From an uncultured Ruminococcus sp. (GTDB lineage: Bacteria > Bacillota > Clostridia > Oscillospirales > Ruminococcaceae), in assembly GCA_902796865.1 (NCBI GenBank), contig CADBQZ010000166.1, positions 1 through 11,468 on the forward strand: a stretch of 11,468 nucleotides of DNA. The letters run 5' to 3'. Shown one piece after another: positions 1,889 through 7,691 of this stretch; positions within the stretch are counted from its first letter, which is position 1; each line of letters starts with the position of its first letter. Made by a program: the position numbers and the translations under genes. The notes under the pieces are model-generated. The model was not told where the DNA came from, did not search any database, and saw nothing but the letters and a program-made list of their open reading frames with translations.

Positions 1889-2004
1889 GTACTTTTTAAC
1901 AAAGAATTATAAAGTTTTTAAATTTTATAGCTTTGCACAAAATGAATAATTCTTTAATTTTTTTTTTGTAAATGTGCTAAAACACAATATTAAAATTAAA
2001 AACT

Positions 2005-2036
2005 AAAAGGGACTTTTTAACGAAAAAGTCCCTTTT
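2005..2036 (-). terminator. Rho-independent terminator after the amidase gene
   Basis: A perfect 14-bp stem (2005-2018 with 2023-2036) closes a 4-base loop. Read on the minus strand it begins 3 bases after the amidase stop codon and is followed by a T-rich run (TTTTAGTTTTTAATTTT). It separates the amidase from the yfhO-like gene, whose promoter lies about 120 bases further on. Confidence 0.9.
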
Positions 2037-2039
2037 AGG

Positions 2040-2783
2040 TCAGCTTAATACTATATAATCACCGCTTGCATAACCGGTCGTTCCGTTATAGTTCACTACA
2101 TACCAGCCATTCCCGACATCACCATAAATACTGATCCTGCTCTGATCCGGGATACTGCCTGTTATTTTTCCATTCGTAGACGGATAGTCTCTTATGTTGA
2201 GATTTGATCCATCTGCTGAAACGATGCCAACCGATACAGGACCCGGCTCTGCAAATGGGATACCAAAATAATCGCATAATGAACCGGTAAGATTTTTAGC
2301 AATATTGTTTAGATTTCTTTTTATCCATGCTTCGTCGTCAATGTTATCATGATATCCAAGCTCGCAGAGTACCGCAACTGCTTTTGTTTTTGATATTTCA
2401 GCAAGACTTCTTGTCGGTACAGCACTCGCCTTATCCGGAAGCGGATATATCTGTTTGAGATTATTAGCTATTATATTAGCAAGTCTTTCTGAATTGCTGC
2501 TTGAAGGTTCATAAAAGATATTTATCCCTCTAAGAAGACCGGAAAGTCTGTCAGGCGAAGCGTTTGAATGAAGTGCAAGATGTACGTCATAGTATGCAGA
2601 GTTGGAATCAATTATCGCACCCGAAACATTTCGTTCACGGTCATTTCTTACATATGAGATACCGCATGAACGAAGATAAGGCTCCATTCTGTCGGCAAGC
2701 AGATTCATGTAAAGTTCTTCATTGCCGCCAGATATATAATTATTGAATTCCTGAGTGGAAGGACTTAAAAATACTTTCGGCAT
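2040..2783 (-). CDS. N-acetylmuramoyl-L-alanine amidase (Amidase_3-like) with SH3b domain, no signal peptide
   Basis: The 247-residue protein has an amidase domain at about residues 3-176 and a bacterial SH3 domain at about 184-247 (NLNIRDYPS and GYASGDYI are typical SH3b strands), which would bind peptidoglycan. The catalytic-domain landmarks are Glu22/Glu23 (zinc ligand), His72 in ALHSNAS (zinc ligand) and Glu141 in CELGYHDN (catalytic Glu). The usual first zinc-binding His of a GHGG motif is absent: the corresponding stretch reads LSPSTQ. I recall this variant N-terminus from other clostridial amidases, so it is probably a subfamily trait rather than damage. There is no signal peptide, so export would need cell lysis, a holin, or mother-cell lysis during sporulation. 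ATG follows AGGAG (2792-2796) with 8-base spacing. It is monocistronic, divergent from the regulatory cassette to its right, and ends at a strong terminator. Confidence 0.85.
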   Translation of the reverse strand: MPKVFLSPSTQEFNNYISGGNEELYMNLLADRMEPYLRSCGISYVRNDRERNVSGAIIDSNSAYYDVHLALHSNASPDRLSGLLRGINIFYEPSSSNSERLANIIANNLKQIYPLPDKASAVPTRSLAEISKTKAVAVLCELGYHDNIDDEAWIKRNLNNIAKNLTGSLCDYFGIPFAEPGPVSVGIVSADGSNLNIRDYPSTNGKITGSIPDQSRISIYGDVGNGWYVVNYNGTTGYASGDYIVLS

Positions 2784-2827
2784 ATTCTTTGCTCCTTTTT
2801 TGTTGTTGTGACCGCTATGGTCTTCTA

Positions 2828-2857
2828 TAAGATATGAATCAGCATATAAAAAAGTTA
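2828..2857 (-). promoter_or_regulatory. Possible promoter of the amidase gene, sigma-K-like
   Basis: Read on the minus strand, CATATCTTA (2828-2836) matches the sigma-K -10 pattern CATAnnnTA. TAAC (2854-2857) lies 17 bases upstream, where sigma-K promoters carry an AC-containing -35. A start near 2821 would leave a 38-base leader holding the AGGAG site. No good sigma-A -35 is seen, although TATAGA (2823-2828) could serve as a sigma-A -10. Short degenerate motifs like these occur by chance. Confidence 0.35.
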
Positions 2858-2900
2858 CGGTGAAAGTTATGTGATGAAAGTGAAAAAATCGAAAAAACTA

Positions 2901-2930
2901 TTGACAAAGCTATCTATAATATGCTATAGT
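2901..2930 (+). promoter_or_regulatory. Sigma-A promoter of the Cys-rich peptide/sigma-like operon
   Basis: TTGACA (2901-2906) is a perfect -35. The -10 TATAGT (2925-2930) lies 18 bases on and is preceded by an extended TGC (2922-2924). Transcription would start near 2937, so the operator-like motifs at 2942-2989 all fall in the initial transcribed region and could block initiation or early elongation. Confidence 0.8.
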
Positions 2931-2941
2931 ATGTACAGAAA

Positions 2942-2989
2942 TCTAAACAAGAACATATGTTCTTTAAGTAATAGTTTAGAAAGCTAAAC
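2942..2989. promoter_or_regulatory. Operator cluster of GTTTAGA half-sites
   Basis: TCTAAAC (2942-2948) and GTTTAGA (2974-2980) form an inverted pair around the LexA-like palindrome. GTTTAG (2974-2979) also pairs with CTAAAC (2984-2989) as a compact palindrome with a 4-base centre. The same half-site occurs twice at the promoter of the XRE gene (3618-3624 and 3663-3669), so the XRE protein is the likely ligand. Confidence 0.5.
2949..2964. promoter_or_regulatory. LexA/SOS-box-like 16-bp palindrome
   Basis: AAGAACATATGTTCTT is a perfect palindrome placed about 12-27 bases after the expected transcription start. Its core GAACATATGTTC is the heart of the Firmicutes LexA (DinR/Cheo) box CGAACatatGTTCG; only the outer C and G differ. 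This suggests derepression upon DNA damage. It could alternatively be a site for the XRE repressor encoded downstream. Confidence 0.6.
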
Positions 2990-3001
2990 CAAGGAGGTAA
3001 A

Positions 3002-3166
3002 ATGAGAGCGTGTATATACGACAGATCATGTCAATGTTTTGATGATTGCTGTGACTGCAAAGCAGTTTTGAACAAACGTATCGCAGATCATGCGGATGAT
3101 ATTGCAGAGTATGAAAACGAAAAAGAACGTGAAGAAAAAGCGCTTCGTGATAAAAGGGAGGGATAA
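3002..3166 (+). CDS. Small Cys-rich protein, 54 residues, function unknown
   Basis: An ATG at 3002 sits 4 bases after a full AAGGAGG (2991-2997) and opens a 54-codon frame ending in TAA at 3166. The protein has two halves. The first 19 residues hold six cysteines (4, 10, 12, 16, 17, 19), enough to bind a metal or form disulfides. Residues 28-54 are highly charged and helical in character (AEYENEKEREEKALRDK). It is the first gene after a consensus promoter with a LexA-like box, and its stop is separated by one base from the ATG of the next gene, so the two are very likely co-translated. I do not recognise a family. Similar tiny Cys-rich proteins occur near late-gene regulators in clostridial prophages, but that comparison is from memory. 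The frame, RBS and operon position make it a real gene. Confidence 0.7.
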   Translation: MRACIYDRSCQCFDDCCDCKAVLNKRIADHADDIAEYENEKEREEKALRDKREG

Positions 3167-3167
3167 A

Positions 3168-3581
3168 ATGACTGAAATACAGCTTGAAAAGATAAATATA
3201 CTTTCAAGACTGAAGTTCGCTGAAAAAAAGATAAGATCGCTTGCAGCATTGAAAGAACGTGATATACAGCGTGCTGAAAGCTTTCTTAAGGGATTTCCTG
3301 ATAAAGAAGACCAGGCAGGCATGAAAGAGTGTATCCTGCAAACAGAAAGACTGAAAAAAATATCAGCCGATAATTACAATGACGCATTGAAAGAATATAA
3401 TTTAATATACGAAGATACTATGCGTCTTATAAATGACATTCCAGATCAGCAGCTAGCAGAGACTTTGAGGCTTAGGTATATAGATGATCTTACGTGGGAA
3501 GAGATCGCTGTGCGTACATACTATAGTCTAAGGAATGTCAAATATATGCATAAAAAGGCTTTGGATATGATCAAAATTTAG
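3168..3581 (+). CDS. Phage-type transcription regulator, ArpU/RinA/DUF1492-like (sigma-70 region 4-like)
   Basis: The 137-residue protein has a charged, coiled-coil-like N-terminal half (about residues 5-80). Its C-terminal helix-turn-helix (about 95-135) resembles sigma-70 region 4: the pattern LRLRYIDDLTWEEIA followed by LRNVKYMHKKAL is characteristic of the ArpU/RinA/DUF1492 phage proteins that activate late or packaging genes. The frame is open back to 3090, but the start at 3168 is preferred because GGGAGG lies 5-6 bases upstream and because the longer version would overlap the Cys-rich gene. The second gene of a two-gene unit, it would be controlled by the LexA-like box and GTTTAGA operators in front of gene one. 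No phage structural genes are nearby, so its target promoter is unknown. The family assignment rests on pattern recognition. Confidence 0.65.
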   Translation: MTEIQLEKINILSRLKFAEKKIRSLAALKERDIQRAESFLKGFPDKEDQAGMKECILQTERLKKISADNYNDALKEYNLIYEDTMRLINDIPDQQLAETLRLRYIDDLTWEEIAVRTYYSLRNVKYMHKKALDMIKI

Positions 3582-3608
3582 AAAACTGAATAAAATTCCA
3601 AAAAACAC

Positions 3609-3637
3609 TTGATTTTTTCTAAACTCTGTGATATAAT
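3609..3637 (+). promoter_or_regulatory. Sigma-A promoter of the XRE/ImmA operon
   Basis: TTGATT (3609-3614) and a perfect TATAAT (3632-3637) are 17 bases apart, with an extended TGA before the -10. The half-site TCTAAAC (3618-3624) lies inside the spacer, so a bound protein would occlude RNA polymerase. Confidence 0.8.
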
Positions 3638-3669
3638 GAAACTACAATAAAAAAACAGGAGTGTTTAGA
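3618..3669. promoter_or_regulatory. GTTTAGA operator pair at the XRE gene promoter
   Basis: TCTAAAC (3618-3624) and its exact inverse GTTTAGA (3663-3669) flank the -10 and the ribosome binding site; the second copy lies between AGGAG (3657-3661) and the ATG at 3671. A near copy, ATTTAGA, lies at 3576-3582. The arrangement suggests autoregulation by the XRE protein, and the downstream copy could also interfere with translation start. Confidence 0.5.
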
Positions 3670-3670
3670 A

Positions 3671-4024
3671 ATGGAAGAATTTCATGAAAGACTCAAAAAA
3701 GCAATGGAAGAAAAAAATATCAGTCAGACAGAGCTATGCCTGAGGACCGGTATACCAAAATCGGCAATGTGTCAGTATATTTCGGGTGCTTTTCGTCCAA
3801 AGCAGCAGCGTACTCATCTTATTGCCAGGGCGCTTGGTGTCAGCGAGATGTGGCTGAGCGGTCTGGAAGAAAACAAGCATGAAAAGCCATCTGATGATGA
3901 AATTAAATTTGCCTTATGGGGCGGAACTGAAGGTATCACCGATGAAATGTATGAGGAGGTAAAACAGTTTGCGGAAATGGTTCGTCTTCGTGAACAGGCA
4001 AAACTCAGTAAAGACGGTAAATAG
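3671..4024 (+). CDS. XRE-family (Cro/cI-type) helix-turn-helix repressor
   Basis: The 117-residue protein begins with an HTH_XRE domain (about residues 5-63). The first DNA-binding helix is SQTELCLRTG (18-27), and the recognition helix is around PKSAMCQYISG (29-39). These are followed by the typical RPKQQRTHLIARALGVSEMWLSG tail, in which residues 42-64 close the domain. The C-terminal 50 residues are charged and helical and probably dimerise. Small one-domain repressors of this kind control lysogeny or conjugative-element genes. The ATG follows AGGAG at 9-base spacing. The gene is the first of a two-gene operon with the ImmA-like peptidase (12-base gap), the order of immR-immA in ICEBs1, where the peptidase cleaves the repressor upon induction. 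Repeated GTTTAGA half-sites at its own promoter and at the 2901 promoter make it the probable master repressor of the cassette; that part is inference. Confidence 0.85.
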   Translation: MEEFHERLKKAMEEKNISQTELCLRTGIPKSAMCQYISGAFRPKQQRTHLIARALGVSEMWLSGLEENKHEKPSDDEIKFALWGGTEGITDEMYEEVKQFAEMVRLREQAKLSKDGK

Positions 4025-4036
4025 AGGTAATAGTCT

Positions 4037-4447
4037 ATGAATAAAAGCGTTAAGCTTGATAATATCGCCGAAAAAGACGATATAGAGATAATGGAGATAA
4101 GATCAGAAAGCTGTCCGTCGGTATCAGTAATGGCGGACAGTGGAAGATGCTATATCGGCATTGACAGCAGGAATCTATCGGGTGCCGAAGAAATAGTACG
4201 TAAAGCTCACGAGCTTGGACATTGTGAGACAGGCGCATTCTACAACAGATATGCTGCCTGCGACCTTGTATCAAGATGTGAGTATCGTGCTGATGTATGG
4301 GCGATAGAAACGCTTGTAACACGCACAGAGCTTATGGAAGCTATGCGTTCGGGGAAAACAGAGATATGGGAACTTGCGGAATATTTTTCGGTAACGGAAG
4401 ATTTTATGCGTAAGGTCTGTGTGCACTATGGATTTCTTGATATGTAA
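4037..4447 (+). CDS. ImmA/IrrE-type zinc metallopeptidase
   Basis: The 136-residue protein carries a clear HEXXH zinc motif, HELGH (residues 58-62), preceded by the usual helix AEEIVRKA. Glu82 in CEYRADVWA is the likely third ligand, matching the E-x-x-A-(D/N) pattern of ImmA/IrrE (formerly DUF955). Residues 93-136 form a helical C-terminal part (WELAEYFSVTEDFMRKV) typical of the family. Such enzymes cleave a partner XRE repressor (ImmR in ICEBs1, DdrO in Deinococcus) in response to DNA damage or quorum signals. The ATG follows AGAGG about 8-9 bases upstream, and the gene is 12 bases after the XRE stop. At 136 residues it is close to the minimal family size and looks intact. It converges with hemW across 34 bases without a clear terminator. 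Cleavage of the neighbouring XRE protein is inferred from context. Confidence 0.88.
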   Translation: MNKSVKLDNIAEKDDIEIMEIRSESCPSVSVMADSGRCYIGIDSRNLSGAEEIVRKAHELGHCETGAFYNRYAACDLVSRCEYRADVWAIETLVTRTELMEAMRSGKTEIWELAEYFSVTEDFMRKVCVHYGFLDM

Positions 4448-4481
4448 AGATGATGTATAGATCATAATAAAGAAAGTGAAA

Positions 4482-5561
4482 TTATAGGATAAGATCGGAA
4501 ATTATACTGTTTGAAACAAGAAAGCCCTTTGGCGTAAGAGAAAGTCTGTTATTCTGCTTTGTCATAAGTCCGGCTTTTATGAATTTTTCCGAGCGTTCTG
4601 AAATGATATGAGCCTTTTCAGGATAATCATCAAGTGCTATGCCTTCTTTGAGTCTTAGGCCAAGCATTATCCTTTCATCATATCCGCCGGCTGCATCATC
4701 GGTGATTTTATAAGACATCGGAGCTTTAAAAAAATCTTCTATAGAATCAGGAAGAAAATAACGTTTGCCTTTATGATAAGAGTGTGCCGACGGTCCGAAG
4801 CCTATGTATTCTTCACAGTGCCAGTATTTTAGATTGTGTCTGCTTTCATATCCTTTTTTGGATAAATTGGATATTTCATATTGCATGAATCCTTTTTGTT
4901 CAAGCTTATTTACCATAAACAGATAGAGTTCTGCTGAGTAGTCATCGTCGGGAAGTGTATTTATAAATTCTTCATTGTAAAAAGGCGTTCCGGGTTCAGC
5001 TTTAAGTATATAGCTTGAAATATGCGTCACCGGAAGATCACTTATCATATCTATCGTGTGTCCAAGTTTTTGCGTCGTCTGAGCAGGAAGGCCTGTCATT
5101 ATATCACAAGAGATGTTATTAAAACCGCAGCTGTAAGCTTCATTTACAGCTGCGGCTGCTTTTTCATAATTGTGTAGCCGTCCCAGAAGCTTCAATTCAT
5201 CATCATTTGCCGACTGAACTCCGAATGAAAGTCTGTTTATGCCTGCTTGTCTGTACAATTCGAGTTTATTTCTGTATACAGTTGACGGATTTACTTCCAT
5301 GGTCACTTCAGGAGAAATAATATCAAACTTATTCTTTAAAGCTTCGAGCATAAGTGATATGCTTTCCGCTTTAAGAAGTGACGGAGTGCCGCCGCCAAAA
5401 TAAATTGTATCAGAAGTTATTCTTTCTGGAAAATTTTCAATATCACGAACAATAGCCCTTACAAATCTCATCTCGTTATCAGCAGTATAATTTTTCGAGA
5501 AGAAATCACAGTAAGGGCATTTTTTTGCACAGAAAGGGACGTGTATATATATACCCGTCAT
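4482..5561 (-). CDS. hemW: Radical SAM heme chaperone HemW (formerly annotated as HemN-like coproporphyrinogen oxidase)
   Basis: The 359-residue protein opens with IYIHVPFCAKKCPYC, giving the CxxxCxxC cluster ligands Cys11, Cys15 and Cys18 for the radical SAM [4Fe-4S] cluster. GGGTPS (56-61) is the SAM-binding glycine motif, and RLSFGVQS (110-117) is typical of the family. RHNLKYW (241-247) contains HNxxYW, the heme-binding signature that separates HemW from true HemN; HemW transfers heme to respiratory enzymes rather than oxidising coproporphyrinogen. The C-terminal HemN_C winged domain is present. The start is fixed by a 4-base ATGA overlap with the stop of the upstream membrane zinc-ribbon gene, with AAGGA at 5572-5576, implying translational coupling. 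It is the last gene of the lepA operon, in line with the lepA-hemW order common in Firmicutes. No hrcA follows; the phage-style cassette does. Confidence 0.93.
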   Translation of the reverse strand: MTGIYIHVPFCAKKCPYCDFFSKNYTADNEMRFVRAIVRDIENFPERITSDTIYFGGGTPSLLKAESISLMLEALKNKFDIISPEVTMEVNPSTVYRNKLELYRQAGINRLSFGVQSANDDELKLLGRLHNYEKAAAAVNEAYSCGFNNISCDIMTGLPAQTTQKLGHTIDMISDLPVTHISSYILKAEPGTPFYNEEFINTLPDDDYSAELYLFMVNKLEQKGFMQYEISNLSKKGYESRHNLKYWHCEEYIGFGPSAHSYHKGKRYFLPDSIEDFFKAPMSYKITDDAAGGYDERIMLGLRLKEGIALDDYPEKAHIISERSEKFIKAGLMTKQNNRLSLTPKGFLVSNSIISDLIL

Positions 5562-5875
5562 TTTGTATCGATCCTTATTGCAGGAACAAGCTTAAAAAAC
5601 AGAGCATCACCTATACGGGTGATAAGGAATGCTCCTATAAGCGCTCCTGCCATGTAGTAAAGTCCGATAGTCGAGTCGATCTTTATGTAAGTAAATACCA
5701 CAAAGATCAAAACTAAAACATCGACTATCACATGAAATATAGCTGAATGTATATCATTAGTGCTTCTTTTTCCGCAGGCAGGACAAACAGTGCCTTTTGA
5801 TTGTGGATTGCCTGCAAAAGCTTTTTTGATTGGTGATATAGTTTTTTCTCCGCAATGCGGACAAGTATGCTTCAT
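5558..5875 (-). CDS. Small membrane protein with N-terminal zinc ribbon, function unknown
   Basis: The 105-residue protein starts with a zinc-ribbon made of two CxxCG knuckles: Cys5/Cys8 (CPHCG) and Cys31/Cys34 (CPACG). Two predicted transmembrane helices follow (about residues 44-65 and 72-93), with a short basic tail. This topology puts the zinc ribbon in the cytoplasm, or outside as a short sensor head; the sequence does not decide. The ATG lies 8 bases after AGGAG (5884-5888) and 13 bases after the lepA stop, and its TGA overlaps the hemW start by 4 bases, so it is a genuine member of the operon. No specific function is recognised. Position between lepA and hemW could reflect simple insertion into an old pair or a membrane or heme-related role; neither is shown. 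Confidence 0.82.
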   Translation of the reverse strand: MKHTCPHCGEKTISPIKKAFAGNPQSKGTVCPACGKRSTNDIHSAIFHVIVDVLVLIFVVFTYIKIDSTIGLYYMAGALIGAFLITRIGDALFFKLVPAIRIDTK

Positions 5876-5888
5876 TTAAAAAACTCCT

Positions 5889-7691
5889 TTATTCATCAAG
5901 TTTTAATACGCTCATGAATGCTTCCTGAGGAACGGTCACTGTTCCTAACTGACGCATTCGCTTTTTACCTTCTTTTTGCTTTTCAAGCAGCTTTTTCTTT
6001 CTTGTTATATCGCCGCCGTAGCATTTAGCCAGAACGTCTTTACGAAGAGCTTTTACAGTTTCTCTTGCAATTATTTTTCCGCCTATTGCTGCCTGTATCG
6101 GAACTTCAAAAAGCTGGCGCGGGATATTTTCTTTAAGCTTTTCTACCATTTTTCTACCTCTTGAATAAGCGCCGTCAGCGTGTACGATAAATGAAAGTGC
6201 ATCGACTATATCGCCGTTGAGAAGTATGTCAAGCTTCACGAGTTTTGAAGGAACATATCCTTTCATCTCGTAATCAAATGAAGCGTAGCCTCTTGTGCGT
6301 GATTTCAAAGCATCGAAAAAGTCATATACTATCTCGTTGAGCGGCAGCTGATAGTGCAGTGCCACACGGCTTTCATCAAGATATTTCATGTCGTTGAATG
6401 TTCCTCGTCTTTCCTGACAAAGTTCCATTATGCTTCCGACAAAATCCGAAGGCGCTAATATCTCAGCGTTAACCACAGGCTCTTCGGCACTTTCTATCGT
6501 TCCGGGGTCAGGGAAATTTGTAGGATTGTCTATCATAAGCGTTTCGCCGCTTGCTAAAGTTACTTTGTATATTACCGAAGGTGCGGTAGTGATAAGATCG
6601 AGATTATATTCTCTCTCAAGTCTTTCCTGGATTATCTCCATATGAAGAAGTCCTAAGAATCCGCATCTGAATCCGAATCCAAGTGCAGCAGATGTTTCGG
6701 GTTCAAATGAAAGCGCAGCATCATTGAGCTGAAGTTTTTCAAGAGCATCACGAAGATCGCCGTATTTTGCACCGTCTGCCGGATAGATACCGGAATAGAC
6801 CATAGGGTTTACTTTTCTATAACCCGGAAGTGCTTCATCACATGGGCGTTCAGAAAGAGTAACTGTATCACCGACCTGAGTATCGCCAATACTTTTTATA
6901 GAAGCGGATATGTAGCCTACTTCGCCGGCAGTAAGACTGCCTCTGTTTATGTGACTGTCAGCATCCATGTAACCTGCTTCTACAACGTCAAATTCCGCAC
7001 CGGTAGCCATAAGCTTTATACGATCGCCTGTTTTAACAGTGCCTTCCTTGACACGAACGTAGATTATAACGCCTTTATATGCGTCATAATAGCTGTCGAA
7101 TATAAGCGCTTTCAGCGGCTTTTCGGGGTCTCCGGAAGGAGAGGGGATATCGGTCACTATCTTTTCGAGGACTTGTTCTATATTTATGCCGGCTTTAGCT
7201 GAAATTTTTGGAGCGTCCATTGCCGGTATGCCTATAACGCTTTCTATCTCTTCACACACTCTTTCGGGGTCTGCCGAAGGGAGATCTATCTTATTTACGA
7301 CAGGGACTACTTCAAGATCATGCTCGATAGCAAGATATGTATTGGCAAGCGTCTGAGCTTCTATGCCCTGTGAAGCGTCAACAACAAGTATCGCTCCTTC
7401 ACAGGCAGCAAGAGAACGTGATACTTCATAGTTGAAGTCAACGTGTCCTGGTGTATCTATGAGATTGAATATATATTCTTTTCCGTCTTCTGCTTTATAT
7501 GTAAGGCGTACAGCTCTTGCCTTTATAGTGATGCCTCTTTCACGCTCGATGTCCATGTTGTCGAGCAGCTGTTCTTCCATATCACGTTCTGCCACAGTGT
7601 ATGTTTTTTCAAGTATCCTGTCTGCAAGAGTAGATTTTCCGTGATCTATGTGAGCTATTATGCAGAAGTTGCGAATGTTTTCGTTTGCCAA
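5889..7691 (-). CDS. lepA: Elongation factor 4 (LepA), ribosomal back-translocase GTPase
   Basis: At 600 residues the protein matches full-length LepA. The GTPase motifs are all present: P-loop AHIDHGKST (13-21), switch I ERGIT (51-55), DTPGH (79-83), NKID (133-136) and SAK (164-166). EF-G-like domains II, III and V follow, then the LepA-specific C-terminal domain (about 490-600: [23 protein letters not shown]). EF4 binds stalled ribosomes and affects initiation and fidelity under ionic or low-pH stress. The start codon is TTG (7689-7691): GGAGGG (7699-7704) lies 7 bases upstream and the N-terminus MANENIRNF matches the family, so TTG is preferred over any downstream start. It is the first gene of the lepA/zinc-ribbon/hemW operon, driven by the promoter at 7757-7785. 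Confidence 0.97.

Follow-up and report, generated by a model that had tools for sequence, protein, structure and literature searches.

A phage-type switch cassette without a phage in a Ruminococcus genome: probable master control of a dispersed gene-transfer-agent-like element

What does a phage-type genetic switch control when no phage is attached to it? The question is raised by a stretch of 11,468 nucleotides from an uncultured Ruminococcus sp. (GenBank assembly GCA_902796865.1, contig CADBQZ010000166.1), hereafter the window, which is the entire contig C166 of a 1.77-Mb draft genome (276 contigs, 89% complete; here G000). Four tandem plus-strand genes, all open in the window's list of open reading frames (ORFs), occupy positions 3002-4447 and encode a Cys-rich peptide, a predicted late-gene activator, an XRE repressor and an ImmA-like metallopeptidase. 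The initial annotation recognised this four-gene cassette as a phage-type switch with no phage beside it, and both points are borne out, the genes by ORFs and family scans and the isolation by the window's ORFs, among which no integrase, replication or structural gene is seen. The window, and hence the whole contig, thus holds no complete prophage. We conclude that the cassette is probably the detached master switch of a dispersed element resembling a gene transfer agent (GTA), a domesticated phage of the PBSX or FpGTA type, on which it would act in trans.

The relatives of the cassette were assessed in a comparison set of 11 genomes of the genus, G000 and ten others, drafts of 60-450 contigs. 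All four genes recur in the same order in G006 (locus L061), which holds the closest relative; this recurrence in a second genome of the genus makes the cassette more than a chance assembly. In L061 divergent terminase genes lie on one side of the cassette, a TGCA-N6-TGCA motif (see below) stands between it and TerS/TerL, and a dockerin-like gene (assigned by eye) and an LdcB-like gene lie on the other side. That the closest cassette adjoins TerS and TerL with the motif in between is one of the observations favouring a master switch. In G002 (L141) and G010 (L142) the Cys-rich peptide and activator genes instead face an XRE-S24 repressor (Peptidase_S24 at E = 2e-25 in L141; the two repressors are 82% identical). 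Since G006 has XRE plus ImmA and the other two an S24 repressor, a single effector pair appears to be combined with two kinds of sensing part. The G010 cassette is flanked by host genes on both sides of its 6.9-kb contig; that of G002 has an ABC-F gene on one side, and its 3.6-kb contig ends inside the repressor on the other.

Matches to the activator at E ≤ 1e-3 are found in four of the 11 genomes (G000, G002, G006 and G010), and a profile search at E ≤ 1e-6 adds more distant activators in G004 and G007. A prophage on contig C163 of G010 contains a second copy of both activator and TerL, and in a prophage of G037 (L144) a related activator gene lies between replication-type genes (by eye) and TerS. 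Genes labelled by eye as terminase, portal and capsid lie beside more distant ImmA-like genes at L062-L065, in rumen Eubacterium-like and Oscillospiraceae genomes, and also in an IMG/VR contig (L116); an XRE gene was called as well in L062-L064. The initial annotation had asked whether all close homologues lie inside complete prophages and whether the cassette is never found with an integrase. Of the three relatives in the genus one adjoins terminase genes and two lie away from visible phage genes, these two on contigs of 3.6 and 6.9 kb and under the other repressor class; no integrase is seen beside any of the four cassettes, but their contigs are short.

Some further loci deserve mention in their own right. 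A lone ArpU-like gene (L145:9579-10028, contig C95 of G024) stands directly 5' of addB/addA-like genes, as judged from the starts of their sequences, with no phage genes seen near it in that stretch. Two tRNA genes lie close to what looks like a PBSX-like element on contig C2 of G054 (L183); it comprises XRE, ArpU-like, TerS, TerL, portal, capsid and tail-sheath-like genes (several assigned by eye), and the stretch shows no integrase. A similar ABC-F gene (by eye) adjoins both a TerS-TerL-like frame in G005 (L187, contig C246) and the G002 cassette (L141, contig C59), through a shared hot spot or by chance.

The earlier suggestion that the cassette controls genes elsewhere is probably correct, the only site of the motif in G000 lying at a terminase operon on contig C21. 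The TerL encoded there is 70% identical to that of L061 and can be assigned to the PBSX family, scoring above the cut-off of TIGR01547 (164 bits versus 105). A dockerin gene precedes it, and genes for portal, head-tail, major tail and tape-measure-like proteins, the last a weak match (E = 0.001), lie 3' of it; no integrase or replication gene is seen in the 7.9 kb up to the contig end. TerL of the C21 type (68-75% identity) is present in G000, G002, G006 and G010 and in none of the other seven genomes. These are the very four genomes with activator matches, a co-occurrence that again favours the master switch. More broadly, this TerL finds a match in 42 of 100 relatives, and among the best 12 of 908 records the named phages have TerL 55-66% identical. 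In the four named phages whose gene after the portal was read, it is annotated as minor capsid protein twice, as head morphogenesis protein once and without a name once; in C21 a head-tail-type protein directly follows the portal.

The TerS of C21 has 56 residues, which align with the C-terminal part alone of full-length phage TerS. Neither of the two truncated TerS proteins scanned matches a Pfam family, against Terminase_2 in four of five phage or prophage TerS and other helix-turn-helix models in the fifth, and the sole match of the truncated protein in a large-database search is an identical protein. The sequence therefore predicts a TerS without a DNA-binding domain, a trait reported for FpGTA, the agent of Faecalibacterium prausnitzii, in the available portion of its description (PMC12946183), and the resemblance adds to the case for a GTA-like target. 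Direct action of the XRE repressor on the C21 operon was considered and set aside, no operator being present there with up to three mismatches allowed.

The ratio of non-synonymous to synonymous differences (pN/pS) was calculated for both cluster and cassette, with most synonymous distances saturated: it is 0.19-0.29 for TerL, 0.31-0.36 for the portal, 0.43 for a head-tail protein, 0.25 for XRE, 0.36 for ImmA and 0.38-0.57 for the activator. The capsid genes described below give 0.09-0.23, and the host controls lepA and hemW 0.07-0.09 and 0.39, respectively. The values for TerL, capsid, XRE and ImmA are consistent with genes kept for a function under the switch.

The motif itself, GTGCAAANNNNTGCA, is absent from the window and has a single site in G000 (1.77 Mb), in front of the C21 TerS; by chance, 0.01 sites would be expected in the 7.9 kb of that contig. 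This single placement is a further argument for control of C21 by the cassette. Across the 11 genomes there are 23 sites compared with seven for the reversed pattern, and in the four cassette genomes 14 compared with two. Six of these 14 precede phage-derived modules: on C21 in G000, C204 and C177 in G006, C157 in G010, and C186 and C354 in G002. The nine sites in the other seven genomes include four that were inspected, none of them at phage genes. Since the motif had been derived at terminase and capsid genes, its occurrence on C354 amounted to a prediction of a previously unnoticed tail and endolysin module in G002, which speaks for the proposed wiring. So does the constancy of spacing: in all four capsid and tail promoters the motif lies exactly 39 bp from TATAAT, and at TerS promoters it is reversed and lies 12 bp from TATACT in G006, TATAAT in the G037 prophage and CATACT in G000, this last being read by eye and less convincing.

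The link between motif and activator can be followed in phages. Among 30 activator loci searched up to 1.5 kb on each side, the motif is found in two, G006 and the G037 prophage, and both activators have the helix R[NT][IV]KYKHK (the helix reading leaves out L046, L047, L055 and L056). It also lies at the 3' end of the activator gene in five of 14 IMG/VR loci (L311, L314, L315, L316 and L321) and in one of 27 further family loci (L283); as L311 resembles G037 and L315 resembles L316, about five lineages carry it. The helices of L314-L316 and L321 are of other kinds (RNVHY, RNIHY, RNTQY). Downstream of the motif follow TerS genes in L311 and L283 and HNH-like genes (by eye) in L314, L315 and L321. 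Judged by these placements, the motif is one that belongs to the activator class of the window. Regulators of the RinA/Ltr/Alt type, as far as the accessible part of PMC13123087 describes them, are proteins of about 130 residues encoded near terS that bind repeats upstream of the late promoter, and this behaviour together with the motif at the ends of related phage activator genes supports the reading of the cassette as a switch acting through the motif.

Two observations on the repeats at activator gene ends may be added. In L312 and L313 the helix RN[IV]RYKH goes with TTGCC repeats, as against RNVKYKH with TTGCA, a pairing that is possibly a recognition code. In the viral contig L321 five TTGCA repeats with a 10-base period run across the end of the activator gene (6967-7010).

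Further modules that the switch may address lie apart from the terminase genes in the relatives. Host genes (by eye) surround an isolated scaffold-capsid-sigma-like module, with scaffold and sigma-like domains identified in its proteins, in two genomes: recJ/relA and a leucine-rich-repeat gene flank it in G010, Rrf2 and a LacI-like gene in G006. Scaffold and capsid genes are directly 5' of TerL in G002, and G009 has a copy of the capsid module on a 3.8-kb contig. On C354 of G002, with host genes upstream, an Amidase_3 protein is encoded together with a 930-residue protein that is tail-tip-like by eye, Pfam giving coiled-coil matches only; the counterpart on contig C3 of G010 has a small holin-like protein (by eye) in between. 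All four modules are spread over four contigs in G010 and three in G002. The contigs with capsid and tail modules in G006, G010 and G002 are short and open-ended, and no integrase or replication gene is seen among these modules. Separately, contig C106 of G007 (L212) contains integrase-like, primase-like, scaffold, capsid and ArpU-like genes, mostly assigned by eye, with no terminase seen, and looks like a capsid-coding satellite.

Upstream of scaffold and capsid genes, and once of a tail gene, is a conserved RNA leader of the form GUACCGC..GUUAG..CAUGGGAA..CAUGCC-U-run (L180:3245-3334 minus, L209:11642-11722 minus, L210:1603-1750 plus, L211:870-966 plus, L212:5475-5570 minus, L243:4160-4241 minus, and L254-L266). 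Its structure has 14 predicted pairs, six with compensatory changes among 16 aligned sequences. No Rfam family other than tRNAs reaches its gathering score in the scanned loci, and one leader weakly matches unrelated families. It may act in antitermination or attenuation. The GTGCAAANNNNTGCA motif is missing from all 13 IMG/VR loci that carry the leader.

How the cassette might exert such control is suggested by its own composition. The acidic Cys-rich peptide (54 residues, 3002..3166, plus strand, as are all the cassette features) matches no family in the scans, and a single near-identical protein in a large-database search, yet it shares C-[IM]-[YR]-D and a subsequent Cys cluster with the peptides that precede the activators of L061, L141 and L142; it may be an accessory of the activator. 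The predicted activator (137 residues, 3168..3581, helix RNVKYMHKK) matches phrog_36 (E = 7e-11) and phrog_248 (E = 7.5e-5), both families of transcriptional regulators or activators, and its C-terminus resembles sigma region 4, with a match below the Pfam cut-off. The original label of ArpU/RinA/DUF1492-like is sustained by these matches in an indirect way, the ArpU, RinA and DUF1492 families themselves giving none. A small regulator with a sigma-region-4-like end, together with repeats before a late promoter, is what would be expected of an ArpU/RinA-type late activator, and both are seen here. The XRE repressor (117 residues, 3671..4024) matches HTH_3 (E = 8e-8), is 68% identical to its L061 counterpart over 117 aligned residues and has no relatives in the viral contigs searched; one of its homologues is assigned to Porcipelethomonas sp. 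The ImmA/IrrE-type metallopeptidase (136 residues, 4037..4447) matches PF06114 (E = 1.6e-6) and phrog_87 (E = 2e-24), and its intact HELGH is unchanged across five aligned ImmA-like proteins; the two genes, XRE followed by an ImmA-type gene with HEXXH, appear to form an ImmR/ImmA-type pair. Sequence searches of the PDB gave best E-values of 0.11 for the ImmA-like protein and 0.26 for the activator, neither convincing, and the window is without an Rfam match.

A sigma-70-type promoter for the peptide and activator genes (2901..2930, TTGACA-18-TATAGT, 11 of 12 consensus bases), of similar layout in L061, is followed just 3' of the -10 by a putative XRE operator (2933..2948) with two mismatches to GTTTAGNNNNCTAAAC, and then by a second at 2974..2989, a perfect GTTTAGAAAGCTAAAC palindrome; the L061 counterparts are at 1127-1142 and, with one mismatch, 1159-1174. 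With three mismatches allowed the palindrome has five matches in the window against 6.2 expected, no more than chance. The xre-immA promoter (3609..3637, TTGATT-17-TATAAT) has, on direct reading, an operator-like half site CTAAAC in its spacer.

From gene content, co-occurrence, motif positions and spacing, all of which rest on sequence, we infer binding, induction and particle production along the following lines. XRE would repress the peptide and activator operon through the GTTTAG-N4-CTAAAC sites until, on a signal of damage or starvation, the ImmA-type peptidase inactivates it, by analogy with ICEBs1. The ArpU-type activator then made would act in trans at TGCA-N6-TGCA promoters, its target in G000 being the C21 operon of truncated TerS, TerL, portal, head-tail and tail proteins, and its targets in the relatives including, at other places, the scaffold-capsid and tail/endolysin modules. 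Taken further, the modules could constitute a GTA split into separate chromosomal parts (switch; terminase-portal-tail; scaffold-capsid-sigma-like factor; tail tip-holin-endolysin), wired by the activator and its site and having an exchangeable sensing half, XRE plus ImmA in two genomes and a self-cleaving-type S24 repressor in the two others. This fuller proposal is tentative, and we regard it as finely balanced.

Several known systems share features with this arrangement. In ICEBs1 the XRE repressor ImmR and the ImmA-type peptidase are encoded in tandem, as here, but no integrative and conjugative element, integrase or excision genes are seen here. PBSX of Bacillus subtilis likewise has an XRE-type repressor with an ImmA-like gene beside it, but its regulators lie within a single contiguous cluster. 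Further likenesses to PBSX are a PBSX-family TerL in a defective phage and a sigma-like factor, in PBSX that called Xpf (PMC4243946, available portion). Unlike in PBSX, switch and terminase cluster are separated in three of the four genomes, in G000 on C166 and C21, respectively. RinA/Ltr/Alt genes adjoin their own target, whereas the only motif site for the window's activator is on another contig. Closest in logic is the Caulobacter GTA, where RogA, LexA-like without key cleavage residues, represses gafYZ, and GafYZ activate the GTA cluster as well as some 18 accessory promoters (PMC9632790 and PMC11150451, each as far as accessible). There too a phage-type repressor silences an activator operon, but the activators are of another kind and ImmA is not mentioned in the accessible portions. 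The genes of FpGTA fall into two operons, which in one strain are separated by about 125 kb. One encodes TerL, portal, scaffold and capsid along with a TerS that has no evident DNA-binding domain; the other encodes the baseplate, holin and endolysin. Genes for replication or phage metabolism were not identified in operon I, and the agent is called most likely podovirus-like (PMC12946183, in part). Compared by description, the two systems share a related group of gut Firmicutes, a split between head/packaging and baseplate/lysis genes, and the shortened TerS. They differ in that FpGTA is most likely podovirus-like, with no regulator named in the accessible portions of its description, whereas here a tape-measure-like protein is weakly matched, G006 and G010 have their capsid genes away from the TerL cluster, and the switch is a separate cassette. 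Our literature searches, with subscription papers and preprints mostly outside their coverage, turned up no ImmA- or ArpU-controlled GTA among the papers listed. What had been called an undescribed regulatory system is therefore made of parts of known kinds, in a detached layout not found in those searches; the notion of a domesticated lysogeny module remains plausible.

A number of observations weigh against a dispersed, centrally switched agent. A presence in four of 11 genomes is patchy for one kept vertically, and the activators of the cassettes are of low identity to that of the window (43% in G006, 33% in G002 and 35% in G010). In G000, 89% complete as it is, capsid, tail-tip protein and capsid-type RNA leader were not found, so that a complete set of head, tail and lysis genes was not seen, and capsid genes occur also in G007 and G009 without cassette or C21-type TerL, in G007 near an integrase-like gene. 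The G006 portal is followed by an IS110-like transposase (labelled by eye, with contig C291 assumed to continue C204); since the tail module was not found there either, this copy may be decaying. C21 stops at a contig edge, as do several modules, and just one flank of the G002 cassette is readable. The motif was picked by eye from five sites that included the G000 TerS site, and eight of the 14 sites in the cassette genomes are not at modules. With an RNA element common to capsid and tail leaders, descent from one ancestor could account for the equal spacing there. The -10 before the G000 TerS is poor, a scripted search giving TATATA alone at 17-19 bp. Finally, C21 and the window agree in tetranucleotides (r = 0.96) and GC content (0.39 and 0.38), but contigs of other genomes of the genus reach r = 0.94, so that tetranucleotides hardly prove a common origin. 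It is on account of the draft genomes, contig ends, missing G000 modules, transposase, single G002 flank and target-aware motif that we call the master switch no more than probable and the split agent tentative.

Other explanations have to be set beside this one. The cassette might be a plain remnant, the surviving immunity and late-control region of a lost prophage on which nothing elsewhere depends. The setting of the activator in the G037 prophage and the wide spread of C21-type TerL among the 100 relatives are in keeping with this; yet all four genes are open, promoters and operators are matched in L061, the pN/pS values of XRE and ImmA are 0.25 and 0.36, two further genomes have similar activator cassettes with no phage genes visible around them, and the one motif site of the genome is at a phage operon. 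We consider such a remnant unlikely. Rather less credit is due to a tailocin-type killer, in which cassette and C21 cluster make a PBSX-like particle directed at relatives, gene transfer being absent or incidental: the cluster still has its terminase and portal genes, and in relatives capsid and scaffold genes persist under the identical motif, even though the TerL is of the PBSX family, G000 has tail, head-tail and terminase genes with no capsid found, and PBSX, by the account in PMC12946183 (in part), does not inject its DNA.

It is very improbable that the cassette is a phage parasite, a minimal satellite-like element whose activator takes over the motif-bearing late promoters of resident or incoming phages. 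The motif is common to phages, weak relatives of the activator (E = 6e-3) occur in two streptococcal satellites, and G007 has its capsid-bearing element with an integrase-like gene; against this, the window has no visible integrase, replication or packaging gene, no direct repeat of at least 14 nt has copies on both sides of the cassette, and the motif-bearing TerS/TerL belongs to the identical four genomes. The same lack of repeats (positions 2000-5600) disposed of site-specific insertion behind hemW. Least credible of all is local control of the neighbouring amidase, which the initial annotation had entertained. The amidase gene (2040..2783, minus strand; Amidase_3 and SH3_3 domains) and the cassette are divergent and 218 bp apart, but the window lacks the activator motif and the amidase is a conserved host gene outside the cassette, with a 68-74% identical counterpart in six of the ten other genomes. 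In the six relatives read it adjoins a radical-SAM gene (labelled by eye) five times and the cassette never, contrary to the expectation that the two always lie together; these counts also rule out an endolysin left by a deleted prophage. On the other side, hemW (4482..5561, minus strand) is likewise a flanking host gene, the order hemW-zinc ribbon-lepA being kept in all seven relatives of the genus compared, with the cassette past hemW in none; the genes found there are common to G001, G007 and G009 and different in the other four. As host genes that lack the cassette in relatives, amidase and hemW are uninformative as partners.

The detached master switch, if correctly identified, would bear on GTA-like packaging in gut bacteria. 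GTA-like packaging is described as common in Ruminococcaceae and Oscillospiraceae in 2026 work that includes Ruminococcus callidus with 4.6-kb fragments; the search for GTA elements made there covered four metagenome-assembled genomes, none of R. callidus, and no genes or regulator are named for that species in the accessible portion (PMC12946183). The present loci would then supply candidate genes for one GTA-packaging lineage together with a master switch that could be turned on and off, and searches for the promoter motif might locate the remaining modules in other genomes. They would also represent a phage regulator that has outlived its own phage as a chromosome-wide controller, and could reveal how such particles are controlled in gut bacteria.

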